Positions 10,001 to 28,389 of a DNA stretch of 64,000 nt are shown here, in pieces (position 1 is the first letter of the stretch; each line of letters opens with the position of its first letter). The position numbers and the translations under genes are program-made. The notes beneath the pieces were generated by a model. It did no database searches, had not been told where the DNA came from, and saw only the letters and a program-made list of their open reading frames with translations. Source of the stretch: Methylocystis heyeri (lineage in GTDB: Bacteria > Pseudomonadota > Alphaproteobacteria > Rhizobiales > Beijerinckiaceae); assembly GCF_004802635.2 (NCBI RefSeq), contig NZ_CP046052.1:2666001-2730000 (forward strand), given 5' to 3'.

Positions 10001-10974
10001 AAGGCATGTTCGCCTGGGCGGTCGTCTGCGAGGACGAAGGCAAAGAGACCGTCGCGATAGATGTTTCCGTCGCGAGATTCGAGCGCGAAGGCGAGCGCTG
10101 CGTCATAGTCCGTCTCCGGCGCGCGCGACAGCGCTTCCCGAAAGGCGCAAGCGCTCACCGTCCTGAAGTGACGGTTAAGGCCCCGTTTCTGCGCGAGTGC
10201 GGCGACGGTCAGAGCCGCAGTAGCGCCCTGGGACTGCACCGTCCAGGCCGCCAATGCCCGGTGGGCGGCGACATAGTCCGTCCATCGCTTGTCTTCGGAC
10301 ATAGCATAGAAAAAACAATCGCGGAAAGCATTCTCGACGCACTCCATCCACTCGACCATCGCTTCGATCGAGAAGGGCGGCGGCGCCGTTCGAGCCGACG
10401 CGCTTTCGCGCAACGCGCTCAGCGCGTCGCAGTGCTTCTGCGCCGTATGCACTTGGCCGTGGAGCGCTCCAATATGAATATTGTTTTGGAACGCTGGGAG
10501 CGACGACAGCCTGTCAAGCACTTCGCGCGCCACTGTCTCGGCCTTGAGCAAGCGTGTGGCCAAATCCGCCCAATGAGCCTTCCAATCGACGGGCTCAGGC
10601 GCCGGCGCCGGCCGCGAGCGGGAAGGAAGCGGCGCCGCCGTCACGATGCGCGCGGTTTCAAGAAGGATCGGCTGTTCGGCCGCGGCGGCGCTCGCAGGCG
10701 CTTCGGGGAGGGGCGAGCTTTCCGGCTTTACTGTTTCTTCGCGATCATCGCAGATGGGCGCATCGCTCTCGCCTGCCGTCACATAGCCTTTGCTGGTCTT
10801 TTCCTTGGTCAGCTTGTCGAATTCCTTCTGCGCCGCCGCGGCGCTGGCAAAAGTTTTATCCTTCGTCTGGCCATTGGTCCCGATGCGGCCGAAACGTACG
10901 GTCAAGGTCTCGCCGTCGACCCGCCCTTCCCAGAATTTGGCGGATTTATCGTCGCGATATTCGTAACGAATCAT
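7066..10974 (-). CDS. yehI: WGR-DUF4132 giant protein (YehI/MolR-like)
   Basis: A 1302-residue protein. The N-terminus is a WGR domain (residues about 1-75, with KFWEGRV and VRFGRIG), a fold found in poly(ADP-ribose) polymerases and in bacterial DNA-linked proteins. After a low-complexity linker the long helical repeat region (many Ala/Leu helices, HEAT-like) leads to the DUF4132 domain in the C-terminal third. An earlier ATG would extend the frame to 11352, but that overlaps the upstream gene; the ATG at 10974 is preferred because GAGGAG lies about 11 bases upstream and WGR starts immediately. It sits 20 bp after the DUF5682 gene and overlaps the VWA gene by 4 bases. E. coli yehI (formerly molR) is the counterpart; the old molybdate-regulator label has no support in this sequence. 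Confidence 0.85.
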   Translation of the reverse strand: MIRYEYRDDKSAKFWEGRVDGETLTVRFGRIGTNGQTKDKTFASAAAAQKEFDKLTKEKTSKGYVTAGESDAPICDDREETVKPESSPLPEAPASAAAAEQPILLETARIVTAAPLPSRSRPAPAPEPVDWKAHWADLATRLLKAETVAREVLDRLSSLPAFQNNIHIGALHGQVHTAQKHCDALSALRESASARTAPPPFSIEAMVEWMECVENAFRDCFFYAMSEDKRWTDYVAAHRALAAWTVQSQGATAALTVAALAQKRGLNRHFRTVSACAFREALSRAPETDYDAALAFALESRDGNIYRDGLFAFVLADDRPGEHALKPLAVLHEAASLSFDTRLHPEFAHLVLDAPPSQTEPCRIQRGLFQSFHGSDVTAACMAATAQAVARAHGESPTSVLEWLSRVLEENQRCDIACAILDDEAFESADGLYSRLMEKPIRAAFDLAQKTYPRRMFARLLIAYSTGRVDPAIRGRLFLLLNEIGQDVAQAIAQSLDAKAQKSLGALLDLAGESAPREAWPTVLSAPPWRAKRAKSEDIRLTLEPISTPTVIGAMAAPAPDPYRRYGALSDLKELPKQIAFAETQAPIREPWPAAEPMPAEGADAVQWVSWLGARCDALAGSESWLWGTYANMCRAVARQPEELAMLLWSRPRFMAICSVEWRLVVPEMMSRFGDKALEGLLGHLRSNPVEILPIVAAIGAPEIAPIAARAMLRLKKARDAGRDWLRAHPRTAIYNLLPQAIGAPGQAREEAEYALRWMAAAKEANAALLQEATRDYAQIEPRVEEAVKQVLTRDPLRQTPAKVAKLPAWLAPAALVSPKLRSGGALPQEAVVALLEMLSFVKSDDVYPGVAQVREACDPKSLSAFAFDLFSAWLGAGAPGKDGWAMRAMGWIGDDECARKLTPLLRKWPGESAHARAVSALDVLADIGSDVALMHLNGVAEKVKFKGLQDKAREKIAAIAEARDLTPEELADRLAPDLDLDSRGGLDLDFGERKFRVGFDEFLKPWVKDSSGARIKDLPKPNKSDDAEKAAAAQARWSTLKKDARAAAALQITRLETMLGSARRVSPEVFWTFFAAHPFIRHLAQRLVWAAYDEDGAATFFRVADDLSFTDANDDPIEIDVTAQAKGKIGLAHPIYMSDDERIGWGALFGDYEIVQPFPQLGREIFALTESEKSASEIGRFDGVEIESPRLWGMRGRGWRLGQPQDAGGIHWIERHMSLPGGEKLVAYLPFEDGIYAGAPDAGNATQKLGKIMLGEPNWYGVRRGAQAPGARTFGALDPLVASEILRDVATIAQSAGKAPA

Positions 10975-10994
10975 CGAACAGACTCCTCGAATGT

Positions 10995-13268
10995 CTAATT
11001 GAAACCCCAGCGCGCGAGCCGCTCCAGCGCCCGCGCCTCCGCATCCATCGCCTGCGCCTGGCTCTCGACGGATTTGCGCTGACGCATCCAATCGAGCGCG
11101 ATCGCTTCCGCATCGGCGGCCTCGCGGCCGCTGAGCTGCAAGATGACGCGCGCGAGAGCCTCGCGCTCGCGCGGCGGAAACCAGGCGAAGGCGCCGCGCA
11201 TCGCCGGAAGCGCGGCGAGAAACTCCTGTTGCGTCCAGCCGGCAACCAGGCCGTCGACGGCGACGAGCGCCGGCGCCGCCGTGCCAATCTCCTCGCGCGC
11301 GAGCGCGAAAAGCCCGCCGAGAAAATCGCCGAGATTTTCCGGCCGCGCACATGATTTGATCCGTGCGGCGGCCCCGTCTCCGGCGTCGCCGAAACCCATG
11401 GCGACAAGCCAGCCCAGCGCCGCGCCCGCGAGCGCCGGCGGGGTTTCGGCATTGGCGACTATGCGCTCGAAAACCTCGCGCGCGGCGGAGAGGGAAAGCG
11501 CGAGCCCGTCGCAGCCGCGCGCAAAATCGCGCGCCGCGATCACGGCGTCGATCGACGGGCGCCCGTCTCCGACCGGTCCTTCCAGCAGAAACAAAATACG
11601 CTCGAACATGGTTTGCGCCAGCGGCGCCAGCGCGCGCGTCGCACCGAAGACATCGCCGAAACGATAGAGCCGCGTCACCCGGCGGGCGGCGCGGCCGAGC
11701 GGCCCGATCTCGCGGCAGGCGGCGGCATGTTTTTCGAGTTCCACGGTGGAACTGGCCGCCTCATAGAGGCCGGCGAACAGCCCGTCCGACAGCGCCGCGG
11801 CCAGCGTATCGACATTGCCCGGCGCATCGTCGAGCCGCGCACGAAGCCGCGCCGTCGCGGCCATCGGCAGATCGCCGCCCCAGCGTGAAGCTTCGATCAC
11901 CGCCGCCATCCAATCAGAATGCTTGGCGATCTCGAATGTCTCGGTCAGGTCGCGCGCGTCGGCATGGGGCGGCCCCGCGATGCGGAGGACGCCGGGAAGC
12001 TCCAGCAGCCGCATCTGATGCAGCGTATGAGCTTTGCCCCTGCGCGTCTTGTCGCGCCAGTCAATGGCGACGAGCTTTTTCACGCGGTCGGGAGTCAGCT
12101 GATATTGGGCGAGGCGGCGTTCGAGATCTTGGATGAGCGGCGGCAGGCGAACGCCGCTCGCCAGCCGCCCCTCTTTATCGTCGCAGAGCGCGAACAGCAT
12201 TTCGACGACAATATCGTCGGCCGCCCCGGTCACCGCGCCCGATCGCGTCCAGGCGGCGGGGCCGGAGAGTCCGTCCTTCACCAGGGCCGAGAGCGCCGCG
12301 TCGAGGAGGTCGGCGCGCAAAATCGCGCGATGGCCGCGCAGATTGGCGAGGGCGCAGGCGTGGGCGCGCCAGGCGATGCGGTCGGCGGTAGAGACCGGCA
12401 GACCTTTGTCGCGCAGCGCCGCGCCGATGCGCGTCATCGCCCAGTCGGCAGCCGCCTCGAGTCCCGATTGGTAAGCGACGTTCCAATAGCCGGGCGAGGG
12501 CATGCCCGCCGCATAGCCCGAAAATGCGTCTAGCCGCGCGAAGCTGTAGGGCGTCAGATAGCTCTCCGCACGCGCCCCCTCCGGCGGCTGCGGACAGATC
12601 GGCCGCGCGCCATCCGCCTCGCCGAGAAAGCGGCGCACGCCCCCGACATGCCAGCCGCCGCAGACCAGCGCGACCGGACGACCCGCGGCTTCCTTCAGCG
12701 CCCAAGCGACATGGGCGGCCATGAATTTTTCGCGTCCCGCCTCGCGCGCGTCTTCCGCGCCGTCCGGGCGCAGCAGCTCGAAATAGGTCTCCAGCAGTTT
12801 GGGCAGGCGCGCTTCTTCCGCCTGCTCGATCAGAGCGTCCCAGGCGGCGTCCGAACCTTCCGCTCGTAGATTAACCTGCAACGCCGCATCGGCCGCATGG
12901 CGGCGCGCGAGCAGAGGATGCGGATCGGCGTAACGATTGGCGCGCTCGCCGAAATCGGGATGCCAGGCGGGGAGATCGCAAAACAGCGGCGTCGCGCCGA
13001 TCTCGAAGGCGGTCCGCAAGGCGCGCCATTCCGGCGAATAGGCGCAAAAGGGCGAATAGGAGGAGCGAGATGTCGTCTCGTCGGCGCAATAGGAGAAGAT
13101 CGCGATCGGCGGCGTATGATCGAGCCGGAGATCTTCGATATGCGGATTGAAATCCGCCGGCCCTTCGATCAGCACGTAAGCCGGCCGATGCGCGCGGATC
13201 GTCGCCTCCACATGCCGCGCGCAAGCCGGGGAGTGATGACGAACGCCGAGGAGGAGCAGAGGAGCCAT
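10995..13268 (-). CDS. yehM: DUF5682 family protein (YehM-like)
   Basis: A 757-residue protein that begins MAPLLLLGVRHHSPACARHV, typical of DUF5682. The N-terminal segment has the layout of TraB/ChaN/erythromycin-esterase-like folds: GVRHHSPAC, then LIEGPAD about 20-30 residues later, then a His-rich loop (CGGWHVGG). Those folds are metal-dependent hydrolases or their relatives, so an enzymatic role is plausible. The C-terminal half is helical and Ala-rich. Gaps of 16 bp to the AAA+ gene and 20 bp to the DUF4132 gene support a single transcript. E. coli yehM is the counterpart by content. The family assignment is firm; the biochemical role is unknown. Confidence 0.8.
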   Translation of the reverse strand: MAPLLLLGVRHHSPACARHVEATIRAHRPAYVLIEGPADFNPHIEDLRLDHTPPIAIFSYCADETTSRSSYSPFCAYSPEWRALRTAFEIGATPLFCDLPAWHPDFGERANRYADPHPLLARRHAADAALQVNLRAEGSDAAWDALIEQAEEARLPKLLETYFELLRPDGAEDAREAGREKFMAAHVAWALKEAAGRPVALVCGGWHVGGVRRFLGEADGARPICPQPPEGARAESYLTPYSFARLDAFSGYAAGMPSPGYWNVAYQSGLEAAADWAMTRIGAALRDKGLPVSTADRIAWRAHACALANLRGHRAILRADLLDAALSALVKDGLSGPAAWTRSGAVTGAADDIVVEMLFALCDDKEGRLASGVRLPPLIQDLERRLAQYQLTPDRVKKLVAIDWRDKTRRGKAHTLHQMRLLELPGVLRIAGPPHADARDLTETFEIAKHSDWMAAVIEASRWGGDLPMAATARLRARLDDAPGNVDTLAAALSDGLFAGLYEAASSTVELEKHAAACREIGPLGRAARRVTRLYRFGDVFGATRALAPLAQTMFERILFLLEGPVGDGRPSIDAVIAARDFARGCDGLALSLSAAREVFERIVANAETPPALAGAALGWLVAMGFGDAGDGAAARIKSCARPENLGDFLGGLFALAREEIGTAAPALVAVDGLVAGWTQQEFLAALPAMRGAFAWFPPREREALARVILQLSGREAADAEAIALDWMRQRKSVESQAQAMDAEARALERLARWGFN

Positions 13269-13284
13269 CGGCGCGGCGAAGGCT

Positions 13285-14373
13285 TCAGACAGTCAGAAGG
13301 TGACGCGCTGCATGCAGCGCGCGCCAGGCGTCCCCTTTGCGGGCTCCGGCGCGCTGCTCGAGATAGCGCCGCAATTTGGCGAGGTCCTCGGGATTGTCCT
13401 TGGCAGCCGCGCCGGCGAGACATTCCACGATGTCCTCCGGACGGCCGCGATCGCCGCGCAGAAAATGCCCGCGCACCCCGATGGCATGGGCGACGCTCAC
13501 CGCCTCCGCCGTGCTCATGGCGGAGGTCAGTCGCTCGATCGCGACGCCGCTCCCGTCGACGCCCGAGCGCAATTCGCGGAAGCAGGAGACCAGCACCTCG
13601 AGCACGTCGTCCTCCGGCGGCGCCGGAACGCCGGAGCGCAGCAGCAGTTTTTCCGCCTCGCGCTTGACCAGCGCCATCTCCTCGTCGGCGTCGCGAATGG
13701 GGAAGACGGTCTCGAAATTGAATCGGCGCTTCAACGCCGCCGACATGTCGTTGACGCCGCGGTCGCGCGTGTTGGCGGTGGCGATGAGATTGAAGCCCTC
13801 CGCCGCAAAGACCATGGCCTCGTCGCCGAGCTCCGGTATCGCCATCACGCGGTCGGAAAGGATCGACAAGAGGCCGTCCTGCACCTCGGCGGGACAGCGG
13901 GTGATCTCCTCGAAACGGGCGATTTTGCCCCCGCTCATCGCCCTGTGCAGCGGCGCCGGCACGAGCGCGCGCGGGGTCGGCCCCTCCGAGACCAGCAGAG
14001 CGTAATTCCAGCCATATTTGATCTGGTCCTCGGTGAGCGCGGCGCCGCCCTGGATGGTGAGCGTCGACTCGCCGCAGATCGCCGCCGCGAGCAGCTCCGA
14101 GAGCAGGCTCTTCGCCGTGCCGGGCTCGCCGATCAGCAGCAGCGCGCGCGAGGTCGCCAGCGTCACCATCGCGCGCTCTATGAGAGAGCGGGCGCAGACG
14201 ATCTTGGCGGGGCGTCCATCGCCGCCGAGGATGAAGGTCTCGACCGCGCGCAGCGACAGGCGCCAGCCCGGCGGTTTCGGAGCCTTATCGGTTCGCCGAA
14301 GCGCCTCCAGCTCCTCGAAATAGAGAGTTTCGGCGGGCGGACGCTGCCTGTCATCGGTTTTGCGGGCCACCAT
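13285..14373 (-). CDS. yehL: MoxR-type AAA+ ATPase (YehL-like)
   Basis: A 362-residue AAA+ ATPase. Walker A is GEPGTAKS at residues 82-89; it is followed by a Walker B region (KIARFEEITR, with Glu-Glu in place of Asp-Glu), sensor 1 (NLIATANTRD) and an Arg-finger region (ALKRRFNFETVFPI). MoxR-family ATPases act as chaperone-like remodellers together with VWA partners, and such a partner is encoded three genes downstream. It is the first gene of the operon: GGAGGG lies 6 bases before the ATG at 14373, and nearly 500 bp of non-coding DNA lies upstream. E. coli yehL is the counterpart. Confidence 0.88.
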   Translation of the reverse strand: MVARKTDDRQRPPAETLYFEELEALRRTDKAPKPPGWRLSLRAVETFILGGDGRPAKIVCARSLIERAMVTLATSRALLLIGEPGTAKSLLSELLAAAICGESTLTIQGGAALTEDQIKYGWNYALLVSEGPTPRALVPAPLHRAMSGGKIARFEEITRCPAEVQDGLLSILSDRVMAIPELGDEAMVFAAEGFNLIATANTRDRGVNDMSAALKRRFNFETVFPIRDADEEMALVKREAEKLLLRSGVPAPPEDDVLEVLVSCFRELRSGVDGSGVAIERLTSAMSTAEAVSVAHAIGVRGHFLRGDRGRPEDIVECLAGAAAKDNPEDLAKLRRYLEQRAGARKGDAWRALHAARHLLTV

Positions 14374-14867: not shown

Positions 14868-15965
14868 TCAGAAATCATGCTCGAAATAGTGACCCGCGCG
14901 GTCCCGCTTGGCCGCGATGTAGCGCACATTGTGGTCGGTGCGGCGGCCGACGATGCGATGGTCCGAAACCACGTCCAGGCCTGCGTCCTTCAGCGCCGCA
15001 ATCTTGGACGGATTGTTGGTCATGACGCGCACGCTCCGAACGCCGAGCTGCGCCAGCATGTCAGCTGCGAAGTCAAAGCCTCGTTGGTCCTGGCCATGGC
15101 CCAGGATCTCATCCGCCTCGAAGGTGTCATAGCCTCGCGCTTGCAATTCATAGGCTCGGATTTTGGTCGAGAGACCATTGCCGCGTCCTTCCTGGTCGAT
15201 ATAAAGCAAGATGCCGCCCCCGGTGGCCGCCATCTCGCCGACCGTGTGACGCAACTGATCGCCGCAATCGCATTTGAGACTGCCGAAAAGATCTCCGGTC
15301 AGGCAGGCGGAATGGAGCCGCACGCGGACCGGCTGAGATAAATCGGGTCGGCCGATAATGACCGCGACTTGATCGCGCAGTCCCTCGCCGCCTCGGAACA
15401 CAACGAATTCGGTATTCGTGGCGCCTTCCAGCGGAACCTGCGCGCGGCTGACGATGCGCAGCGCCGCGCGGCGCCCGACGCGATAGGCGTTCAAATTCAT
15501 GAGTGACACGGAGAGCAGATGGGGGAGCAGCGCCTCCGCCTCCGCGCTCGTGAGAATGATGGCCGCAGGCAAGACCATCGCCAGACGCATGAGTTCGAGA
15601 GCGCCGACGTGAAGAGGCGTCAGGCCGGCGACCGGAGCGTCGATACGCGCATCGGCTTCATAAGAAAGATGCTGCACGCGATCGACGTCGATTCGGGGCA
15701 GCGCGACACAGCCGGATTCCGATCGATCCAACCCAAGCCGGCGCAACCGCGGCGCCGAAAGGACGAGGCAGGCGGAGCCCTTCGCCGCCAGCTCGAGCTC
15801 CTCGGCGCCCGCTCTCTCCAGCGTATCTACCGCAGAAACGACGAATCGCTCCGAGCCGTGAAGGAGGACGACCGGGCGTCCAGCGCGGATCTCGGCGATG
15901 GCGCGCTCGACCTCGATCTGGCCGACTGGGGTCGGGACACGTCTATTGGACACGAAAGCTCCCAT
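14868..15965 (-). CDS. ribA: GTP cyclohydrolase II with a degenerate N-terminal RibB-like domain
   Basis: A 365-residue protein. Residues about 160-360 are GTP cyclohydrolase II: RLHSACLTGDLFGSLKCDCG holds the three zinc cysteines, followed by YIDQEGRGNGLSTKIRAYELQ shortened here to its key Gln-Glu-Gly-Arg core, and MTNNPSKI. The enzyme converts GTP to 2,5-diamino-6-ribosylamino-pyrimidinone phosphate, formate and pyrophosphate. The N-terminal 150 residues follow the RibB layout (AIAEIRAGRPVVLL) but the acidic motif needed for dihydroxybutanone-phosphate synthase (consensus DDEDRENEGD) is replaced by HGSERFVVSA, so that activity is probably lost. Start: ATG at 15965 has no clear ribosome site; GTG at 15953 has GGGAG 5 bases upstream and is a good alternative. 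It is divergent from the RibD-like gene, so it may serve a special pathway rather than housekeeping riboflavin. Confidence 0.88.
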   Translation of the reverse strand: MGAFVSNRRVPTPVGQIEVERAIAEIRAGRPVVLLHGSERFVVSAVDTLERAGAEELELAAKGSACLVLSAPRLRRLGLDRSESGCVALPRIDVDRVQHLSYEADARIDAPVAGLTPLHVGALELMRLAMVLPAAIILTSAEAEALLPHLLSVSLMNLNAYRVGRRAALRIVSRAQVPLEGATNTEFVVFRGGEGLRDQVAVIIGRPDLSQPVRVRLHSACLTGDLFGSLKCDCGDQLRHTVGEMAATGGGILLYIDQEGRGNGLSTKIRAYELQARGYDTFEADEILGHGQDQRGFDFAADMLAQLGVRSVRVMTNNPSKIAALKDAGLDVVSDHRIVGRRTDHNVRYIAAKRDRAGHYFEHDF

Positions 15966-16068
15966 CGAGCTTGTTGGACAGCTCAGAAAGGTATAATGAC
16001 TTTATCCGATAGAACAAGCATGATTTAAGCGCGCGGACAGGGCACAGGCTTCGAGGAAAGGAAACAGC
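15966..16068. promoter_or_regulatory. Divergent promoter region between ribA and the RibD-like reductase
   Basis: This 103-bp gap serves both directions. On the plus strand a consensus TATAAT lies at 15992-15997 with a weak TTGTTG 15 bases upstream (15971-15976). On the minus strand TTGTTC and TATACC are about 16 bases apart and overlap the same core. Overlapping divergent promoters would coordinate the two genes. No FMN-riboswitch-like sequence fits in the short leaders. Confidence 0.55.
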
Positions 16069-16809
16069 GTGAGGTTCGAGGGCGCAGGGGGGAACGGCGA
16101 AGGCCGGAGATCTCATCCTATCCTTGGAGACGTTTTCGCCCCTTTTCGAGAGGCGTCGCCGGATCGCCCCTTCGTGGTCGGTCAGCTCGGTCAGTCCCTT
16201 GACGGACGGATCGCCACAATCAGCGGCGAATCGCGCGACATCAGCGGCGAGGCGGCGCTGGACCATCTGCATCGCATCAGAGCTCATGTCGATGCAGTAG
16301 TGGTAGGCGCCCACACCATCGTCACAGACGATCCGCGGCTCTCGGTCCGCCGAGTCGAGGGCAAAAGTCCGGCGCGTGTGGTGATTGACCCTTCGGGTCG
16401 CCTCGACTCCACGGGAAAATGGCTAGCCGAAGACGGCGCGCGGCGCATTCTCGTCATGGACGAAAGCGCGACCGGCTCCGGCTCCGCGGAGACGATTCGC
16501 CTCCAGGCGCGCGCGGGCGTTATCCCGCCGGCCGCGATCGTCGAGGCTCTTTTCGCGAGAGGCCTGAAACGAATCCTCATCGAGGGCGGCGCCCGAACGC
16601 TCTCGACCTTCCTCGACGCTGGACGTCTCGACCGGCTGCATATGCTCGTTGCGCCGATGATAATCGGATCGGGCCGAACAGGATTGGAGCTGCAGCCGAT
16701 CGTAAGGCTGCACAGCGCGCTGCGACCCCGCGTTCAAGCCCATTTCCTGGAGGGAGGCGACGTGCTTTTCGATTGCGATTTTTCCGCATGTCATCGCTGG
16801 GAGATTTAA
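16069..16809 (+). CDS. RibD C-terminal (dihydrofolate-reductase-like) reductase
   Basis: A 246-residue protein made only of the reductase half of RibD. It has RPFVVGQLGQSLDGRIAT at the start of the fold, HLHRIRAHVDAVVVGAHTIV and DDPRLSVR (NADPH and substrate loops), LIEGGARTLSTFL and a final VLFDCDF strand. The N-terminal deaminase domain of bifunctional RibD, with its zinc-binding HAE and PCxxxG motifs, is absent. The product of GTP cyclohydrolase II is the natural substrate type, so the protein may reduce the ribosylamino chain to ribitylamino as in the archaeal/fungal order of riboflavin synthesis, or do an analogous step in another pathway. GTG start at 16069 with AGGAAAGGA upstream. It faces away from ribA across a 100-bp divergent promoter. 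Role is inferred from neighbours. Confidence 0.8.
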   Translation: MRFEGAGGNGEGRRSHPILGDVFAPFREASPDRPFVVGQLGQSLDGRIATISGESRDISGEAALDHLHRIRAHVDAVVVGAHTIVTDDPRLSVRRVEGKSPARVVIDPSGRLDSTGKWLAEDGARRILVMDESATGSGSAETIRLQARAGVIPPAAIVEALFARGLKRILIEGGARTLSTFLDAGRLDRLHMLVAPMIIGSGRTGLELQPIVRLHSALRPRVQAHFLEGGDVLFDCDFSACHRWEI

Positions 16810-16836
16810 GCTCGCCCGGCAAGGATGCTGAGGCGC

Positions 16837-17682
16837 CTAAACGGCCTGTGGCGCCTTTGCAAAAATATCGACGTGGTGGATTTCGCAAGCCGTCGATGCG
16901 CGGCGGACCCTGCGCCAGTCATCGACCGTCTCGCCTGAGACCAGCGCCGTTTCGATGACGGCCTGCGCCGAACCCTCGACCAGAGCCTCGATCAATCCGG
17001 CCTCGGATCTCCCCAGGCGCCAGGGGCTGGCGCCACAGGCGACAACATACCCGTGTCGCGCGAGGGCTTGCTGGAGCAAAGTCGCCGCCCTTGGGCCCGC
17101 GGCGGGTCCAAAGCCCTTGTCGCCCATCTGATGTTTCAAAAAGGCGTCGAGCATCGCCGCATCTGCGTGATGCTCCGGCCGCCACTGTTCCACGCCCTCA
17201 TAGGAAAGCGCTGCGTAGAAGGGAAGCCCCAGCCGCGCCAACTCATCGCAGAATTTCTCGATCCAGTCGGCAGAGACGAGATCTATGAATGCCGCCGTCG
17301 TGACGAGATCGAGCGACGCGTCAAAGACGCCGCTGCCGAGGACGGCGAGATCCGCGAGGTCGAACGAAATCTCAAGCCGGCGATCGGCCTTGTGTACTAT
17401 GAGCGGATCAAAAGATTCCACCCGATCCGCCCAATCGCTGAGCGCTGTTCGAGCCACTGCGAGCAGGGCCTCGTCATGATCGATCAGTCGCCAATGCTGC
17501 CGATACGGCAAGCGCAACGCTAGGGCGCGCAGATTCGATCCCGCGCCGCAGGCGAGGTCGAGGATCGACACAGCGGGCCGCGTGGCGAATGCGGCCTCCA
17601 CCAGAGCCTCCAGCCGCCGATTGCGCGCCGCATGATCAGCCGCTTCGCGAAGCGCGAGCCATTCGGCCGAAAAACCGCTCAT
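16837..17682 (-). CDS. Class I SAM-dependent methyltransferase
   Basis: A 281-residue protein with a Rossmann-type methyltransferase fold: motif I is ILDLACGAGSN near residue 40, followed by WRLIDHDEALL (acidic end of strand 2) and LVTTAAFIDLVS (motif IV region). Start at 17682 (MSGFSAEWLALR) is chosen because its ATG overlaps the TGA of the glycosyltransferase gene (ATGA), so translation is coupled; the longer frame from 17769 would run deep into that gene. It is the last gene of a four-gene minus-strand operon (dehydrogenase, PTPS-like, GT4, methyltransferase). The probable substrate is the operon's small-molecule product, perhaps an N- or O-methylated heterocycle or sugar. Substrate unknown. 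Confidence 0.78.
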   Translation of the reverse strand: MSGFSAEWLALREAADHAARNRRLEALVEAAFATRPAVSILDLACGAGSNLRALALRLPYRQHWRLIDHDEALLAVARTALSDWADRVESFDPLIVHKADRRLEISFDLADLAVLGSGVFDASLDLVTTAAFIDLVSADWIEKFCDELARLGLPFYAALSYEGVEQWRPEHHADAAMLDAFLKHQMGDKGFGPAAGPRAATLLQQALARHGYVVACGASPWRLGRSEAGLIEALVEGSAQAVIETALVSGETVDDWRRVRRASTACEIHHVDIFAKAPQAV

Positions 17683-18737
17683 TCGCCCTTGGCTCCCATC
17701 TCGGCGACAACGCCGGCAACGATGCGGGCGGTTTGCTCCCAGCGCGGCAGCTCTCGACCCGCGCGCCAAGCCGCCTCGGACAATTCAAACCGCAGATCCG
17801 GATCGGCGATCGCATTGCGTAGCGCCCGTTGCAGATCGACGACACCGCCCGGCGCGACTTTCAAACCGGCGCCGTCTGGAACCGTCTCCGCGGCTGCGCC
17901 CCCGGTTGAAGAGACGATGGCCAATCCGCGCGTCATCGCTTCGGTGAGAGACATTCCATAGCCTTCATAGTAGGAGGCCGAAACAAAGAGATCGGCTCTG
18001 TCGAAAATGCTCGCGAGGTCTTCGCTTGCGACCTCCCCCAAGATTTCAATGCGGCTTTCCAGAGATTTTGCCGCGATCAGCCCTTTGAGCGCCCCGGTTG
18101 TGAGGGGATCACGGGAATCGTTTCCGACAATGCGCAGGCGCCAGTCGAGATCGACAAGGCCTGAAAGCGCCTCCACCAGCACGTCGAAAGCTTTGCGCGG
18201 AACGATCGCACCCACCGCTAGGAGCGTTGTCGCGCCGCCGGACCCTTGCGCCCGTGGAGCCGAATCGACGCCGGGCGGCGCAACGGCGATCTTTGCGTGA
18301 TCAACTCCAAACTCGCGGGCGAGCAGCGCACGGGTGTGTGCGCTGGTGACGATCACATGCGACGCGAGCGCGAGCGCGCGCCTCTCGCTCTCGAACAGCG
18401 ATTCCGCGCGCTCCGGCGAAAGGCCCGTCTCGAGCGCAAGCGGATGATGACAGAGCGTGACGATCCGCGGGCCGATCGCAAGAACAGCCGCTTCCGGCAG
18501 AACGCCATAGGCGAGTCCGTCGATAAGAATGACATCCCCGTCGCGCCGGCGCCGCGCAATCGCGTCGACGCTCGACGCGACATCCTCGGCGGATGGAGCG
18601 GGAAAGCTCTCTGGCAGGGGACAGTAGTCAACCTCTATGCCCTGCTCTCCCAACGCTTCGATCAGGCGCCGATCATATTCGTAGCCGCCAGTCCGCACTC
18701 GGATATCGCCGGGGATCGCAAAGACGACCCTCGTCAT
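17679..18737 (-). CDS. GT4-family glycosyltransferase
   Basis: A 352-residue GT-B enzyme. The N-terminal half begins MTRVVFAIPGDIRVRTGGYEYD with the Gly-Gly acceptor loop. The C-terminal half contains LLAVGAIVPRKAFDVLVEAL, RLRIVGN and the donor-binding E-x7-E region (SYYEGYGMSLTEAMTRGLAIV). It would transfer a sugar from a nucleotide-sugar donor, retaining the anomer. It overlaps the PTPS-like gene upstream (ATGA at 18734-18737) and the methyltransferase downstream (ATGA at 17679-17682). Being locked between a pterin-synthase relative and a methyltransferase suggests that it decorates the small-molecule product rather than a cell-wall polymer, but that is inference. Confidence 0.82.
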   Translation of the reverse strand: MTRVVFAIPGDIRVRTGGYEYDRRLIEALGEQGIEVDYCPLPESFPAPSAEDVASSVDAIARRRRDGDVILIDGLAYGVLPEAAVLAIGPRIVTLCHHPLALETGLSPERAESLFESERRALALASHVIVTSAHTRALLAREFGVDHAKIAVAPPGVDSAPRAQGSGGATTLLAVGAIVPRKAFDVLVEALSGLVDLDWRLRIVGNDSRDPLTTGALKGLIAAKSLESRIEILGEVASEDLASIFDRADLFVSASYYEGYGMSLTEAMTRGLAIVSSTGGAAAETVPDGAGLKVAPGGVVDLQRALRNAIADPDLRFELSEAAWRAGRELPRWEQTARIVAGVVAEMGAKGE

Positions 18738-19138
18738 CCCGAGACTGGTCCCTCGAACCAGGCGCGCGCTACATGCGACTCGTGCAGCGTCACGCGAATG
18801 CGGGAAACGCCGTCCCCCCCTGGCCCGAGCGCGCCGGAACGCGCAGCCAGAGCTATAGCTTCGAAAACATGGCGTGTGAGGAATTCGGTTGTGGTCTGCT
18901 GACCCTTGAACGCTTCTACCTCGTCGAGATTGCGATAATTAAGGGGCGCCAGCGTCGCTTTCAACGCCTCATGGGCGCGGCCGATGTCGACGACGATGTT
19001 GTCCTCGGTGAGCCGCTCACGGAAGAAAGCCACGTCGACGACGAAAGTTGCGCCGTGCAGCCTCTGAGCCGGCCCGAATAATTCCCCGCGGAAACTATGG
19101 GCGATCATGATGTGGTCGCGAACTTCGACGGCGTACAC
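18734..19138 (-). CDS. Divergent 6-pyruvoyl-tetrahydropterin synthase / QueD-like protein
   Basis: A 134-residue member of the T-fold PTPS/QueD superfamily. The fold markers are present: AHSFRGE (first zinc His), RLHGATF (second zinc His), VVDIGRAHEAL, LNYRNLDEV, TTTEFLTRHVFEAI and a C-terminal LHESHVARAWFE with the substrate-anchoring Glu. In the usual C-x3-HGH motif the catalytic Cys is replaced by Ala and the third zinc His by Ala (HGATF), so standard PTPS or QueD chemistry is doubtful. Start is GTG at 19138 with AAGGAG about 6-7 bases upstream, which fits better than the longer frame from 19231 that overlaps the dehydrogenase gene. It is tightly coupled to the glycosyltransferase (ATGA). 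The substrate is predicted to be pterin- or pyrimidine-like. Confidence 0.75.
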   Translation of the reverse strand: MYAVEVRDHIMIAHSFRGELFGPAQRLHGATFVVDVAFFRERLTEDNIVVDIGRAHEALKATLAPLNYRNLDEVEAFKGQQTTTEFLTRHVFEAIALAARSGALGPGGDGVSRIRVTLHESHVARAWFEGPVSG

Positions 19139-19160
19139 GAGCGTCTCCTTATCGAGTGGA

Positions 19161-20180
19161 TCAATAGCGAATGAGGGTCGCAAGGCCCGGCGCGTCCGCG
19201 GCGAGAAGTCGCGGCAGTTCCCGCGCGACATCGGCGAACGCGACTTCCTCGGTGATGAGCAGGTCGAGGCGCGGGTCGGAAAGAAGCTCCAGCGCCTTGT
19301 CCAACCGACGGGCGTAGGTCCAGCGTGGATGGCGGGAGGGCGCCACTCGACCGACCTGCGACGAGATCAATTGCAAGCGCTTGGCGTGGAAGGCGCCGCC
19401 GAGCGGAACCGGCGTATCGCCTGCGCCGTGCCAGCTCGTCTCGACGATCTTGGCTTCCAGGCCTGCGCAAGCCAGAGCGAGCGCCAGTCCCGCGGCCGAG
19501 GCGCTGGCATGAAAAACGACGTCGGCCTCGATATCTTCAGGCGCGAATTTTCCCGACGACTGGAACTTCGCTCCAAACTCGAGAACCACAGATCGGCGGG
19601 ATTCGTCCTTGTCGACGACGGTGACCTCGGCGCCCGGAAGCCCGGCTACGAGATAAGCGATCAGCAACCCGACCACGCCGGCGCCGATGATCACGATCCG
19701 GTCTCCGGGGCCCGCGCCCGCGTCCCAAACCGCGTTGAGCGCCGTCTCCATATTGGCGCCGAGCGTCGCCCGTCGCAGCGGCGTGGACGAAGGGATTGGG
19801 CGCAGCGCCGAAAGCGGCGCGACGAAACGATCCTGATGCGGGTGAAGACAGAACACCGCGCGACCGACCCAATCCGCCGGGCCCGCTTCCACGACGCCGG
19901 CGGCGCAGTAGCCGTATTTTACAGGAAAGCAAAAGTCGCCCTGCTGAAAAGGCGCGCGCATCCGCTCATGCTCGGCGCCGGGAATGCGCCCTTCGAACAC
20001 CAAGCGCTCCGTGCCTCGGCTGATCGCGCTCCAAATCGTGCCGACCTGCGCCTCTTCAGCGCCGGGAGCCCGAAGAGCCTGCGCGCGCAAACTCGGCCGC
20101 CACGACGCTTCAAACCACAAGGCGCGCGACTCATTCTCCTGTTCCTGGTAGGATTTTATTCCCAGAGACAATTTACGCAC
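19161..20180 (-). CDS. MDR-family dehydrogenase, BchC-like
   Basis: A 339-residue medium-chain dehydrogenase/reductase. The N-terminal catalytic domain has SAISRGTERLVFEGRIP, which resembles BchC (bacteriochlorophyllide dehydrogenase) and its relatives rather than classical zinc alcohol dehydrogenases; the usual catalytic Cys and structural four-Cys lobe are absent. The NAD(P)-binding motif is VIIGAGVVGLLIAYLVAG. The start is uncertain: GTG at 20180 gives the full frame, while a CAGGAG sequence further in could support a TTG start near ALWFEASW, where homologues often begin. It is the first gene of the operon and lies 22 bp before the PTPS-like gene. No other bacteriochlorophyll gene is nearby, so it more likely oxidises the cluster's own hydroxylated product. 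Confidence 0.75.
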   Translation of the reverse strand: MRKLSLGIKSYQEQENESRALWFEASWRPSLRAQALRAPGAEEAQVGTIWSAISRGTERLVFEGRIPGAEHERMRAPFQQGDFCFPVKYGYCAAGVVEAGPADWVGRAVFCLHPHQDRFVAPLSALRPIPSSTPLRRATLGANMETALNAVWDAGAGPGDRIVIIGAGVVGLLIAYLVAGLPGAEVTVVDKDESRRSVVLEFGAKFQSSGKFAPEDIEADVVFHASASAAGLALALACAGLEAKIVETSWHGAGDTPVPLGGAFHAKRLQLISSQVGRVAPSRHPRWTYARRLDKALELLSDPRLDLLITEEVAFADVARELPRLLAADAPGLATLIRY

Positions 20181-20258
20181 CCCATGTTCCCAAGCTATTA
20201 CTAGTCCATAGCGTGATCATACGCCAGAGTTTTCCCATGATCATAGTAGGAACATAAG
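20181..20258. promoter_or_regulatory. Divergent control region with nested inverted repeats
   Basis: The 78 bp between the BchC-like operon and the OpgH-like gene contain an outer inverted repeat ATGTTCC (20184-20190) / GGAACAT (20249-20255). Inside are two copies of the self-complementary TGATCA core, at 20214-20219 and within ATGATCAT at 20237-20244. Two identical boxes about 24 bp apart, flanked by a dyad, in a divergent promoter are typical of a regulator binding two adjacent helix faces. The regulator is not identifiable from this window. Confidence 0.55.
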
Positions 20259-22001
20259 ATGCATGGCCGCATTCCGTCCATGACGCCCACCGGCCTGCAA
20301 AGTCTCACGGAGCTCCGAAGGCGACGCCTCTTTGTCCTATGCCTGAACGGACTGGTTTATTTCGCGCTGCTGTTCTGGCTTGCGGCAAGCCTCGGCGCCG
20401 GCGGCTGGAGCTTCCCGCGCGCCGGCATCCTAGCGGCCTTCGCGATCGCGGCGCCATGGAGCGTGCTCGGATTATGCAATGCGGCGATCGGTTTTTGGCT
20501 GCTGCATTTCCATGGCGACGGCCTCGCCGTCACGGCGCCCTTCGCACGTTCCGCCGAAGGCCGCGGATGGCCGCGCAGCCGAACGGCGATGCTGCTGACA
20601 TTGCGCAATGAGGATCCCGCGCGAGCCTTCGCAAGGTTGGGCGCAATGATGGAGAGCGTGGCGGCGACCGGCGCCGCCGATCGTTTCGACTGGTTCGTGT
20701 TGAGCGATACGAGCGATCCGCGGATCGCCGCGCAGGAAGAGACCGAGTTCGCGTGTTGGAAATCGCAAGCTCGCCAGGATGGGGTCCGGCTGCATTACCG
20801 GCGCCGGATCGACAACGCGGGGTACAAGGCGGGCAATATCCGCGATTTTTGCGAGAATCGGGGCGCCGAATTCGAGTTCATGATCCCGCTCGACGCGGAC
20901 AGTCTGATGGATGGAGAAACGATCTTGCGACTGGTGCGCATGGGCGAGGCGCATCCAAGGATCGGCATCCTGCAAAGCCTCGTCGTCGGGGCGCCGTCGC
21001 GGTCGGCCTTTGCGCGAATCTTTCAGTTTGGGATGCGCCACGGAATGAGAACATACACGATGGGCGCGACATGGTGGGCGGGGGATTGCGGGCCCTTCTG
21101 GGGGCACAATGCTCTCGTCCGCGTCGCGCCTTTCGCAAGACACTGCGTCCTGCCCAGGCTGGAGGGCGACCGGCACATCCTTTCCCACGATCAAATAGAG
21201 GCGGCGCTCATGCGCCGCGCCGGTTTCGAGGTGCGCGCGCTGCCTCTCGAATGCGGCAGCTACGAGGAGAATCCGCCCGAATTGCTTGGATTCGTCATGC
21301 GCGATCTGCGCTGGTGCCAAGGCAATATGCAATATTTCAAATTGCTTGGCCTTCCCGGACTCTTGCCCACGAGCCGTTTTCAACTCGTCTGGGCGATCAG
21401 CATGTTCATGGGCGCTCCCGCCTGGACAGCGGTCATTGCGCTCGGCGCGTCGACGGTCGCCTTCGAAGACGTCTCGTCTATTCCCGCGGCTTCGCTAAAA
21501 GCGATTTATCTCACCTTTCTCGGCTTCAGCCTCGCACCCAAAATTTTCGGCTTCGGAGATGTCCTGCTCACGCCAGGAGGCCTCGCGCGCTATGGCGGCG
21601 CGGGAAAATTCTTCTTCGGAGCGACGGTCGAAATCGTGAGCTCGCTCATCATCGGAGCCGTCACCTCGCTGAGCGAGACGATTTTTCTCCTCGGTCTCGC
21701 GCTCGGCCACACGATGGGCTGGCCGGCGCAGACGCGCGACGCAAAGGGACTTAAGTTCCGCGAGACGGCGATCAGTCTTTCTCCCCATTTTCTATTCGGC
21801 TGCATAACCCTTGCGCTGAGCGCCTGCTTCGCGCCGCGGCTCGCGATATGGTCCCTGCCCGTGACCGCCGGATACATATTCGCGGTTCCTTTCGCTCTCG
21901 CAACCGCCGCGCCGAGAATCGGGAAGTGGTTTCGACGCCGAGCCCTTTGTGCAACGCCAGAGGAAATCCTGCCTCCAAAAATACTCGCGCCTTTCCTGTG
22001 A
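20259..22001 (+). CDS. OpgH/MdoH-like membrane glucosyltransferase (GT2)
   Basis: A 580-residue membrane protein. Two transmembrane helices (about residues 27-47 and 54-83) precede a cytosolic GT2 domain with TLRNEDP, FVLSDTSDP, IPLDADSLM (DxD), GPFWGHNALVR, HDQIEAA and the acceptor motif LRWCQGNMQ (the RW of QxxRW-type enzymes). At least four further transmembrane helices follow. These motifs match OpgH, which makes the backbone of osmoregulated periplasmic glucans from UDP-glucose. OpgH of E. coli is about 850 aa, so this is a short form, and no opgG or opgD lies beside it. ATG at 20259 has AGGAAC upstream; MTPTG at 20280 is an alternative. It shares its control region with the BchC-like operon, so it may glycosylate or export the same product. 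Confidence 0.78.
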   Translation: MHGRIPSMTPTGLQSLTELRRRRLFVLCLNGLVYFALLFWLAASLGAGGWSFPRAGILAAFAIAAPWSVLGLCNAAIGFWLLHFHGDGLAVTAPFARSAEGRGWPRSRTAMLLTLRNEDPARAFARLGAMMESVAATGAADRFDWFVLSDTSDPRIAAQEETEFACWKSQARQDGVRLHYRRRIDNAGYKAGNIRDFCENRGAEFEFMIPLDADSLMDGETILRLVRMGEAHPRIGILQSLVVGAPSRSAFARIFQFGMRHGMRTYTMGATWWAGDCGPFWGHNALVRVAPFARHCVLPRLEGDRHILSHDQIEAALMRRAGFEVRALPLECGSYEENPPELLGFVMRDLRWCQGNMQYFKLLGLPGLLPTSRFQLVWAISMFMGAPAWTAVIALGASTVAFEDVSSIPAASLKAIYLTFLGFSLAPKIFGFGDVLLTPGGLARYGGAGKFFFGATVEIVSSLIIGAVTSLSETIFLLGLALGHTMGWPAQTRDAKGLKFRETAISLSPHFLFGCITLALSACFAPRLAIWSLPVTAGYIFAVPFALATAAPRIGKWFRRRALCATPEEILPPKILAPFL

Positions 22002-25970: not shown

Positions 25971-26070
25971 GTAAGTAATATCCTGTCACGCCGGATGTAC
26001 GCGAGGCGGGAAACAAGCGCCCGGATGGTGTCTCCCCCCGTCCGGGCGTTTGCATCGTCAGGGTCTCCCC

Positions 26071-28389
26071 ATGCGCGTCGTTCCGCTTCTTTTCGTCTCT
26101 GCAGCTCTTGTCCTGTCGTCACGCGTTCAGGCCGAGGAAACCTTGCCCAAACCCGAACCTGCAACCGCCGCGATCCTCGATCCTTCGCGCGACGCCACGC
26201 CGGCCGCCTGGCCAACAGCGGTCAAAGCGAATGAGGGCGCCCCCAATGTGGTGCTGGTGCTGTTGGATGACGCAGGCTTCGGCGCCGCCTCCACCTTCGG
26301 CGGACCGGCAAAAACCCCGGAACTGGATAGGCTCGCGGCACGAGGATTGAAATACAACGCGTTCCATGTCAGCGCCCTGTGCTCGCCGACCCGAGCCGCG
26401 CTCTTGTCGGGCCGCACCGATCATCAGATCGGATTCGGCTCCGTCGCCGACGGCGCAACGGGCTATCCAGGCTACAACGCCCATTGGCCGAAAAGCGCCG
26501 CCAGCCTTGCCCGCGTGCTGCGCGACAACGGCTACAGCACCGCCGCCTTCGGCAAATGGCACAACACGCCCTATGATGAAATCTCCCCGGTCGGTCCCTT
26601 CGACCGCTGGCCGACGGGACTCGGCTTCGAATATTTTTACGGCTTCCTCGCCGGCTACGACAGCCAGTTCGCCCCGCGGCTTTATCGCAACACGACGCCC
26701 GTAGATCAAACGCGCACAGAAAAGGACGGATATCATCTCACCACGGATCTTGTTGAAGACGCGGTGAAGTGGCTCCACGCCCATGAGGCGGTGGCCCCGC
26801 AAAAACCGTTCTTCCTCTATTTCGCGCCGGGCGCCACTCATTGGCCACATCAGGTCCAGAAGGACTGGATCAGGAAATACCGCGGCAAATTCGATCAGGG
26901 CTGGGATAAACTGCGCGAAGAAACCTTCGCGCGGCAGAAGGCTTTGGGCGTCATTCCCGCCAATGCGGCGCTGACCCCGCGCCCCGCAGAGCTGCCCGCA
27001 TGGGATTCTCTGAACGACGACCAGAAGAAACTCTTCGCCCGGCAGATGGAGGTCTATGCCGCTTTCATGGAGCAGACCGATTTCGAAATCGGACGTCTGC
27101 TGAAGAGCATCGAGAAGGACGGCTTCGCCGACAACACTCTGGTGCTCTACATCGCCGGCGACAACGGCGGATCAGGCGAAGGCGGCGTCGATGGCCGCGA
27201 CGTCATCAATGCCGACGGTACAGTCCCCCCGGCCGCAGCGCGACTGCAGCGGGCCGACGAATTCGGCGAGGAGATTTTCGATAATCACTACGCCGCGGCC
27301 TGGGCGTGGGCGAGTTCGACGCCGTTCCAATGGACCAAACAGGTCGCTTCGCATCTCGGCGGGACGCGAGACCCTCTCATCGTATCCTGGCCTGCGAAGA
27401 TCAAAACGCACGGGGAATTGCGCACGCAATTCCAGCACGTCACGGACATTGCGCCGACGATCTACGAACTGGCGGGGATCACCCCGCCCGATAAGGTCGA
27501 CGGCTTCGCGCAGACGCCGCTGGAAGGGAAAAGTTTCGCCGCGAGCTTTTTTGACGCCGCGGCGCCGAGCAGCCACAAGCAGCAGGTCTTCGAGACTTCC
27601 GGCAATCGCGCCATCTACCAGGGCGGCTGGTGGGCCGGGGCGCGTCACGCGGCGCCCTGGTCGGCGCGTCGCGGCGAGCTTGCGATCGGCCAGAATCCTT
27701 GGGAACTCTATAATCTCGACCAGGATTTTTCGCAGGCGCGCGATCTCGCCAAAGATCGCCCCGACAAATTGCGGGAACTGACCGCGTTGTTCGACAGCGA
27801 GGCGAGGCGCACGCAAATCTATCCTTTGCTCCCGGCGCGCAAGGAGCCGCCCTCGCCCGCCGACGGACGAACCGTCTTCGACTATCGCCCGGGCGCCGAT
27901 CACATTCCCCAGCGCATCGGCCCGAAGTTCAACCGCCGCGCCCACAGCATTGTTGCCGACGTGACGCTGCCGGAGGCTCCAGAGGGCGTTATTTTCGCCG
28001 ACGGCGGCGATTACGGCGGCTTCTCGCTCTATGTGAAAGACGGCAAGCTGGTCTATCTCGCGACGGCCTGGGGCAATGTGACGGGAAAAATCGTCTCGCG
28101 CGAAAAGCTTTCGCGCGGCGCGGCGCGGATCGGCGTCGAATTCATCCCCGATGCGACGAATCCGCCGCCGGTCCTCACATCTTTCGAGCCGCGCGTCGTC
28201 TATGCCGGCAAAGTCGTCCTCAGCGTCGATGGCGCCGAGGCAGCGCAGGGACGGATCGAAAATCTGCAGTTTTCTTATAACGAGACGCTCGACGTCGGCC
28301 TCGATTCCGGCGCGCCGGTAAGTCCGGACTACGCCTCGCCTTTCCCGTTCAACGGGCAGATCGATAAAGTGCGCGTGGAGTTGCGGTGA
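26071..28389 (+). CDS. Periplasmic arylsulfatase (formylglycine-dependent)
   Basis: A 772-residue type I sulfatase. The signal peptide is MRVVPLLFVSAALVLSSRVQA. The metal-binding start of the fold is LVLLDDAGFG (Asp66, Asp67). The modification motif is CSPTR with Cys104, Pro106 and Arg108, followed by ALLSGR; Cys104 must be oxidised to formylglycine to be active. Later metal ligands are in AGDNGGSGEG. The C-terminal ~200 residues form an extra beta-rich domain seen in the long arylsulfatases. It hydrolyses sulfate esters and releases sulfate in the periplasm. Start at 26071 is preferred over a TTG seven codons earlier because the signal peptide begins there. No formylglycine-generating enzyme gene is in this window. 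It is followed after 41 bp by the amidase gene. Confidence 0.92.
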   Translation: MRVVPLLFVSAALVLSSRVQAEETLPKPEPATAAILDPSRDATPAAWPTAVKANEGAPNVVLVLLDDAGFGAASTFGGPAKTPELDRLAARGLKYNAFHVSALCSPTRAALLSGRTDHQIGFGSVADGATGYPGYNAHWPKSAASLARVLRDNGYSTAAFGKWHNTPYDEISPVGPFDRWPTGLGFEYFYGFLAGYDSQFAPRLYRNTTPVDQTRTEKDGYHLTTDLVEDAVKWLHAHEAVAPQKPFFLYFAPGATHWPHQVQKDWIRKYRGKFDQGWDKLREETFARQKALGVIPANAALTPRPAELPAWDSLNDDQKKLFARQMEVYAAFMEQTDFEIGRLLKSIEKDGFADNTLVLYIAGDNGGSGEGGVDGRDVINADGTVPPAAARLQRADEFGEEIFDNHYAAAWAWASSTPFQWTKQVASHLGGTRDPLIVSWPAKIKTHGELRTQFQHVTDIAPTIYELAGITPPDKVDGFAQTPLEGKSFAASFFDAAAPSSHKQQVFETSGNRAIYQGGWWAGARHAAPWSARRGELAIGQNPWELYNLDQDFSQARDLAKDRPDKLRELTALFDSEARRTQIYPLLPARKEPPSPADGRTVFDYRPGADHIPQRIGPKFNRRAHSIVADVTLPEAPEGVIFADGGDYGGFSLYVKDGKLVYLATAWGNVTGKIVSREKLSRGAARIGVEFIPDATNPPPVLTSFEPRVVYAGKVVLSVDGAEAAQGRIENLQFSYNETLDVGLDSGAPVSPDYASPFPFNGQIDKVRVELR

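Follow-up and report, generated by a model that had tools for sequence, protein, structure and literature searches.

The 64,000-nucleotide stretch of the Methylocystis heyeri genome analyzed here (contig NZ_CP046052.1, positions 2,666,001 to 2,730,000; hereafter the window) carries at 14868-22001 a cluster of seven genes built around a PTPS-IV T-fold protein. In order, the cluster encodes a GTP cyclohydrolase II (GCHII), a stand-alone RibD C-terminal reductase (RibD_C), a class I S-adenosylmethionine-dependent methyltransferase (MT), a GT4-family glycosyltransferase, PTPS-IV itself, a BchC-like MDR oxidoreductase, and an MdoH/OpgH-like membrane glucosyltransferase. The grouping of these genes exceeds chance. 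Conserved residues and family membership suggest that the set probably encodes an orphan pathway, in which GTP would be converted by way of a ribosyl- or ribitylamino-diaminopyrimidinone into a glycosylated, methylated heterocycle.

PTPS-IV and the recurring gene set

The PTPS protein (18734-19138, minus strand; PF01242, E 1e-19) carries FGPAQ at residues 21-25 and has both PF00925 and PF01872 neighbors; by its sequence it is a PTPS-IV. This subgroup of COG0720 appeared in the AGeNNT study of 2017, whose passages on PTPS-IV give the same signature and the same neighborhood for a node of 561 sequences; those passages name no product and refer to PF00925 as GTP cyclohydrolase I / FolE2, and the MDR, GT4, MT, and MdoH genes and the two subtypes are described here, not there (PMC5445326). 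The closest solved relative, and the only one at E <= 0.01, is 3d7j, the SCO6650 protein of Streptomyces coelicolor (E 7e-44 over 130 residues), deposited as uncharacterized. Residues were compared over 95 rows aligned with the genome's own QueD, using the roles (zinc His, catalytic Asp/His, substrate Glu) that these positions have in the family. The third zinc His of QueD is replaced by Ala in all 95 PTPS-IV rows, the catalytic His by Tyr in 94, and the Asp position by Asn in 76, and the canonical QueD/PTPS combination of three zinc His with catalytic Asp and His appears to be lost; the substrate Glu is retained in all 95. Because a zinc ligand and catalytic residues are lost, although the Glu is kept, ordinary pterin synthesis by PTPS-IV is unlikely, and the pterin step implied by an earlier note on this DNA is not supported. 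PTPS-IV probably remains able to bind a pterin-like edge, without carrying out the PTPS or QueD reaction. Much the same is reportedly said of SCO6650 in the paper on 3d7j.

These losses also bear on whether the locus could be a conventional one for a reduced (biopterin- or monapterin-like) pterin glycoside, with PTPS acting as PTPS, as in cyanobacteria. Cyanobacterial pterin glycosides start from GTP cyclohydrolase I (GCHI) and canonical PTPS, whereas the window set has GCHII and PTPS-IV. A PTPS fold, a GT4, and an oxidoreductase are all present, and cyanobacteria do make pterin glycosides, according to passages of a 2026 review of bacterial pterin signaling (PMC13259868). The likeness to cyanopterin extends to a GTP-derived ring and GT4-type sugar transfer, both expected here. 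With zinc ligand and catalytic residues gone in nearly all 95 rows, and with GCHII rather than GCHI as the partner enzyme, we regard such a locus as very unlikely.

In 289 evenly sampled genomes of Alphaproteobacteria, 42 had a PTPS match (threshold E <= 1e-3), which was strong in 40 (M. heyeri included) and weak in two (G180, G330). All 39 strong loci other than that of the window were fetched and read. MDR and GT4 genes occur at 38 loci each, MT at 36, and RibD_C at 32, and all four are found together at 30. Other genes include GCHII (15 loci), CDP-alcohol phosphatidyltransferase (11), MdoH (9), cytochrome b561 (9), and creatininase (8), with FkbM (6), a sulfatase-fold protein (6), and an unnamed protein (2) being rarer. 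MdoH and CDP-alcohol phosphatidyltransferase never co-occur at these 39 loci, and neither was seen at 19 of them. Drawn evenly across the phylum, 299 genomes gave 22 strong and 37 weak PTPS matches.

A scan of a genome collection returned at least 586 PTPS-IV relatives, the best 80 of which, a selection biased toward the window, were combined with plasmid loci, loci of relatives, and the window itself. This gave 96 loci with a PTPS match, one place being held twice (L053, L103); the 95 distinct loci, some of them on truncated contigs, contain GT4 (90), MDR (88), MT (84), MdoH (71), RibD_C (60), cytochrome b561 (41), GCHII (36), FkbM methyltransferase (27), an unnamed secreted-looking protein (15), CDP-alcohol phosphatidyltransferase (10), a sulfatase-fold protein (7), LPG-synthase-TM (6), and creatininase (6). 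Cytochrome b561 had no match at the window locus. L100 is the sole locus of the 95 with both MdoH and CDP-alcohol phosphatidyltransferase. On a FastTree phylogeny of 126 rows, in which L100 was labeled MdoH by hand, the MdoH and phosphatidyltransferase types require three changes over 100 labeled rows, indicating two subtypes rather than frequent exchange; repeated swapping of the two genes was rejected as a candidate on this count.

The same gene order was sought in relatives and recurs far outside Rhizobiales, which disposes of the objection, anticipated in the earlier note, that it might not be conserved in any of them. The best plasmid PTPS match, on pOB3b1 of Methylosinus trichosporium OB3b (87% over 88% of the protein), lies among MdoH, MDR, GT4, MT, and RibD genes in the order of the window, with GCHII absent from the stretch read; most of the set is also found on plasmids of a gammaproteobacterium, a Streptomyces, and a Microbacterium, as well as at betaproteobacterial loci. 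Among 61 relatives of M. heyeri, PTPS-IV is strong in nine genomes (its own included) and weak in one, and its presence in 3 of 36 congeners indicates a patchy distribution. Three AT-rich loci (L154-L156; GC 0.26-0.28), from alphaproteobacterial genomes of 1.4-1.6 Mb, hold the core together with GCHII and creatininase, which suggests use of the cluster in streamlined bacteria.

GTP cyclohydrolase II and riboflavin supply

The window GCHII (14868-15965, minus strand; PF00925, E 4e-48) is PRK08815/NF006456-like, scoring 462.9 bits with NF006456 against a cut-off of 464. In alignment (E. coli RibA numbering) it keeps the three zinc Cys (54/65/67), Tyr105, Asp126, and Arg128; with the zinc Cys, Tyr105, and Arg128 all in place, it is by residue content a GTP cyclohydrolase II. 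Tyr105 is present in 48 of 52 aligned GCHII rows (one place being held twice), with Met in Streptomyces. The N-terminal 165 residues lack DDxxRExEGD, and their comparison with the genome's RibB was not significant (hhalign probability 2.4); RibBA models cover only residues 150-362. The protein does not resemble a RibBA, and RibB activity is not expected of it, in agreement with the earlier note, which had called that activity lost. A RibB origin of the N-terminal region was not significant in the same comparison.

GCHII of the window type was found in eight of the nine relatives with strong PTPS-IV (M. heyeri included; G060 is the exception) and in none of the other 52. The type was defined by a match starting no later than residue 16, reaching residue 360, with at least 40% identity; because this definition was chosen after the hits had been seen and the genomes are related by descent, the associated Fisher p of 3e-9 should be taken as a rough indication. 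The two genes can also be distant from each other on the same contig, by ~0.9 Mb in G007 and ~1.2 Mb in G055, and co-occurrence at such distances points to a functional link rather than mere neighborhood. In the wider sample, the stretch read contains a GCHII with both Tyr105 and Arg128 in 14 of the 39 genomes, and in 17 one of at least 137 bits lies outside it, by score alone (only 11-14 kb from the PTPS gene in G256 and G287); this division, with the eight genomes considered below, is our reading of combined scans. We infer that diaminopyrimidine must be supplied to the pathway, the cluster carrying a GCHII of its own in hosts that have no other.

A number of observations weigh against a dedicated pathway. 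Long GCHII/RibA proteins of 36-45% identity are common in Alphaproteobacteria without PTPS-IV, which confines the tight co-occurrence of GCHII and PTPS-IV to the 61 relatives; the candidate idea of a dedicated GCHII throughout the class was not upheld for the same reason. GCHII lies within the stretch read at only 15 of the 39 even-sample loci, one of which (L140) lacks Tyr105, and no GCHII scores well anywhere in the remaining eight of the 39 genomes, two of which (L142, L152) have a creatininase at the locus. PTPS stands alone at a Streptomyces anthocyanicus locus (L018) and with only MDR at L149, GT4 is absent at four Rhodobacteraceae-type loci (L015, L071, L093, L098), and the sampled genomes share ancestry, so that the counts are not independent events. 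Finally, the window GCHII is the sole zinc-type GCHII found in its genome, and for that reason may serve riboflavin synthesis too.

This last point, along with the spread of similar long RibA proteins through the class, would favor a reading in which GCHII and RibD_C are ordinary riboflavin genes that lie beside a polysaccharide locus by chance. We consider this unlikely. RibD_C belongs to the set at 32 of the 39 even-sample loci, and the genome encodes elsewhere, above curated cut-offs, a bifunctional RibD (276 bits against 156) with RibE adjoining, a RibB domain, QueE, and QueC, its QueD falling just below cut-off (80 bits against 89). Apart from GCHII and RibD_C, none of the set proteins is a RibH or RibE by domain scan, no RibH search of the genome having been made. 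The genome's other PF00925 protein (C1:1661776; L108 6759-8015, C1 ~1661758-1663014) has a RibB domain over cut-off and no zinc Cys, and resembles RibBX proteins. PF00925 is represented by one low-scoring copy (85-95 bits) in 30 of the 33 congeners that lack PTPS-IV, and the copies inspected in four congeners (L209-L212) all lack the zinc cysteines; of the other three congeners, G014 has an additional canonical copy, and no copy was seen in two drafts that are incomplete or fragmented. Riboflavin synthesis in this genus is thus probably independent of the window gene, although it may benefit from it. In Sinorhizobium meliloti, as reported in the relevant passages of Yurgel 2022, deletion of RibBA causes no riboflavin auxotrophy (PMC9478397).

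The earlier note's preference for a dedicated pathway over housekeeping riboflavin is borne out by the recurrence of the gene order outside the bacterial order and by the separate RibD, RibE, and RibB domain. Its proviso that the genome hold a second ribBA/ribD set is answered in part: RibD and RibB are present elsewhere, and a second zinc-type GCHII was not found.

Where the only PF00925 protein found in a congener combines a RibB domain with a GCHII half without zinc cysteines, the first step of riboflavin synthesis raises the same question as in Sinorhizobium. Riboflavin synthesis in S. meliloti requires a creatininase-family formamidase, BrbF, and the same passages describe its first enzyme as still unknown (PMC9478397). 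The creatininase family is also represented in some clusters, though not in the window set, and one full-length member is encoded in the window's genome. GCHII with Met105 occurs together with a creatininase at one locus; nine other creatininase loci keep Tyr105. For the five cluster copies scanned, the MftE model scores best and the creatininase models, too, outscore ArfB, with every score below its cut-off; the creatininase is accordingly a lead only, rejected as a proven formamidase.

Predicted pathway and product

The second riboflavin-type protein, RibD_C (16069-16809, plus strand; PF01872, E 3e-38), matched only PF01872 and lacks the N-terminal deaminase domain of bifunctional RibD. Its nearest solved sequences are 6p8c (2,5-diamino-6-ribosylamino-pyrimidinone 5'-phosphate reductase) and 2azn; it scores 115.6 bits with the NCBIfam model for bacterial RibD and 100.4 with that for the archaeal reductase, both below cut-off, scores that fail to discriminate between the two types or to fix the substrate. 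The residues of the window GCHII and the stand-alone reductase resemble the reduce-first route of early riboflavin synthesis (RibA, RibD reductase; archaeal ArfA/B/C), but the set has no deaminase, and the riboflavin-type RibD, RibE, and RibB domain lie elsewhere in the genome. For the MDR oxidoreductase (19161-20180, minus strand), the best NCBIfam model is BchC TIGR01202, at 37.5 bits against a cut-off of 291. Its GHE zinc-site motif is replaced by a conserved KYGY, a correspondence placed by eye from family knowledge, and the glycine-rich nucleotide motif and D190 are conserved; it does not appear to be a zinc-dependent MDR alcohol dehydrogenase. The GT4 protein (17679-18737, minus strand; PF00534, E 3e-26; PF13439) has distant PDB matches only, and the MT (16837-17679, minus strand; PF13649, E 3e-7), with 21 invariant columns in 49 aligned sequences, has no close relative among solved structures. 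Glycosylation and methylation of the product are predicted from these enzyme families, and it is domain membership that makes GT4 a putative pterin glycosyltransferase.

In the pathway that we propose, GCHII would open GTP to 2,5-diamino-6-ribosylamino-4(3H)-pyrimidinone 5'-phosphate, as its kept catalytic residues suggest. The RibD-type reductase, with no deaminase alongside, would convert the ribosyl to a ribityl chain before deamination, such that the 2-amino group stays. PTPS-IV may use its retained Glu to bind the 2-amino-4-oxo-pyrimidine edge and, lacking the usual zinc site, may act on the ring or side chain in partnership with the NAD(P)-dependent MDR; GT4 and MT would add a sugar and a methyl group. 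In the MdoH subtype, the MdoH-like membrane protein could add more glucose and may export the product into the periplasm; in the other subtype, CDP-alcohol phosphatidyltransferase would take its place, at some loci with LPG-synthase-TM or sulfatase-fold genes. Conserved residues and nearest solved relatives underlie the first two steps, and the later ones follow from enzyme families; the sequence in which the steps are placed is conjectural.

One product that would fit this scheme is an exported 8-ribityl-type pterin glycoside of a new class, with PTPS-IV closing or trimming a ring from the GCHII/RibD diaminopyrimidine, although we think this exact structure quite unlikely. If it were made, MdoH would extend it or CDP-alcohol phosphatidyltransferase anchor it after glycosylation and methylation, and its role would be that of a redox molecule in the periplasm or at the cell surface, with cytochrome b561 serving it at some loci. 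The broad idea of the earlier note, a decorated heterocycle other than riboflavin, finds support in this analysis; its pterin step and its exact product do not.

The same note had named a deazaflavin-like or azapteridine product among its options, and F420-like and toxoflavin-like pathways were considered here. GCHII, RibD-type, and MT genes are reminiscent of toxoflavin; the set proteins matched no domains of the further tox genes, and the cluster lacks the full tox set. For F420, a 2016 paper assigns PTPS-IV to the archaeal pathway in a statement that cites unpublished work (PMC5041015), but a search of the M. heyeri genome for CofH gave no match, and the F420 reading was rejected on that ground. 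A pathway of either kind is extremely improbable here.

The MdoH/OpgH-like gene (20259-22001, plus strand) scores 800.7 bits with NF003963 against a cut-off of 884, and other MdoH models exceed their cut-offs. It is one of two copies in the genome, the other (C1:2806177) being 37% identical. By match the protein falls in one family with the osmoregulated glucan synthase OpgH, which acts with OpgG on UDP-glucose, but it is tied to the PTPS-IV set, and no OpgG domain was detected among the neighboring window proteins scanned. Its recurrence beside the set in the nearest relatives (71 of the 95 distinct loci), and the CDP-alcohol phosphatidyltransferase and LPG-synthase-TM genes of the other subtype, would suit a glucan or surface-sugar locus in which MdoH, GT4, and MT modify a polymer, with the heterocycle enzymes present only incidentally. 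However, MdoH occurs at only nine of the 39 even-sample loci, and MDR, PTPS-IV, GT4, MT, and RibD_C persist without it; a surface-sugar locus is on this evidence highly improbable.

Two further families were observed at the homologous loci. An ABC transporter family, which we take to be like the cyclic-glucan exporter NdvA, is present at 11 loci and may fill the 1.6-1.8 kb gap between MT and MdoH in betaproteobacterial loci (L081, L083, L085, L087, L095, and others). A secreted-looking protein without a Pfam match (L020 5314-6303, and 14 other loci) often lies directly outside MdoH or FkbM.

Locus organization and significance

The six genes named in the earlier note were all confirmed by Pfam and NCBIfam domains within 14868-20180; the MdoH-like gene, inside the interval which that note covered, had been overlooked. 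GCHII is on the minus strand and RibD_C on the plus strand, followed by a coupled MDR-PTPS-IV-GT4-MT run on the minus strand and the divergent MdoH-like gene on the plus strand. The proposed coupling or close spacing of four genes holds on measurement, with 22 bp from the MDR stop to the PTPS start, a 4-bp PTPS/GT4 overlap, and a 1-bp GT4/MT overlap; the PTPS and MT start codons were set from homologs, a longer PTPS frame opening at 19231. Two divergent promoters had also been proposed. Both divergent gaps exist (15966-16068 between GCHII and RibD_C, 20181-20258 between MDR and MdoH), but a sigma-70 scan detected no promoter in either, the region as a whole having one site against 1.3 expected. 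No motif of the MDR/MdoH gap was common to homologous loci, and a comparison of 85 regions upstream of MDR yielded weak k-mers only (TGATC in 29 of 85). A light- or singlet-oxygen regulon was dropped as a candidate because the ECF-like pair of the window is not common to these 85 regions. The G+C content of the cluster (0.61-0.65) is unremarkable relative to the surrounding DNA.

Beside the cluster, on the minus strand at 7066-14373, lie adjoining genes for a MoxR-like AAA ATPase, a DUF5682 protein, and a WGR/DUF4132 protein, a trio that we take to resemble MoxR-type conflict systems. A large sulfatase-family protein is encoded nearby at 26050-28389.

No report of a product was found in the open-access literature, a scope that leaves out most subscription journals, so that this absence is not proof; the terms "PTPS" and "cyclohydrolase II" do not occur in the passages of the 2026 review of bacterial pterin signaling (PMC13259868). 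These data describe a widespread, apparently uncharacterized biosynthetic cluster, whose neighborhood has been partly in print since 2017 and whose product was not found. Annotation of its members in plasmid records as queuosine, riboflavin, and alcohol-dehydrogenase genes has kept it hidden. Yet 40 of the 289 alphaproteobacterial species sampled (M. heyeri included), or about one in seven, have the PTPS-IV gene, among them the AT-rich genomes of 1.4-1.6 Mb. The core set, the two subtypes, and the exact residue losses make the function of the cluster directly testable, and the results are relevant to the question of pterin-like molecules beyond the cytoplasm of bacteria.

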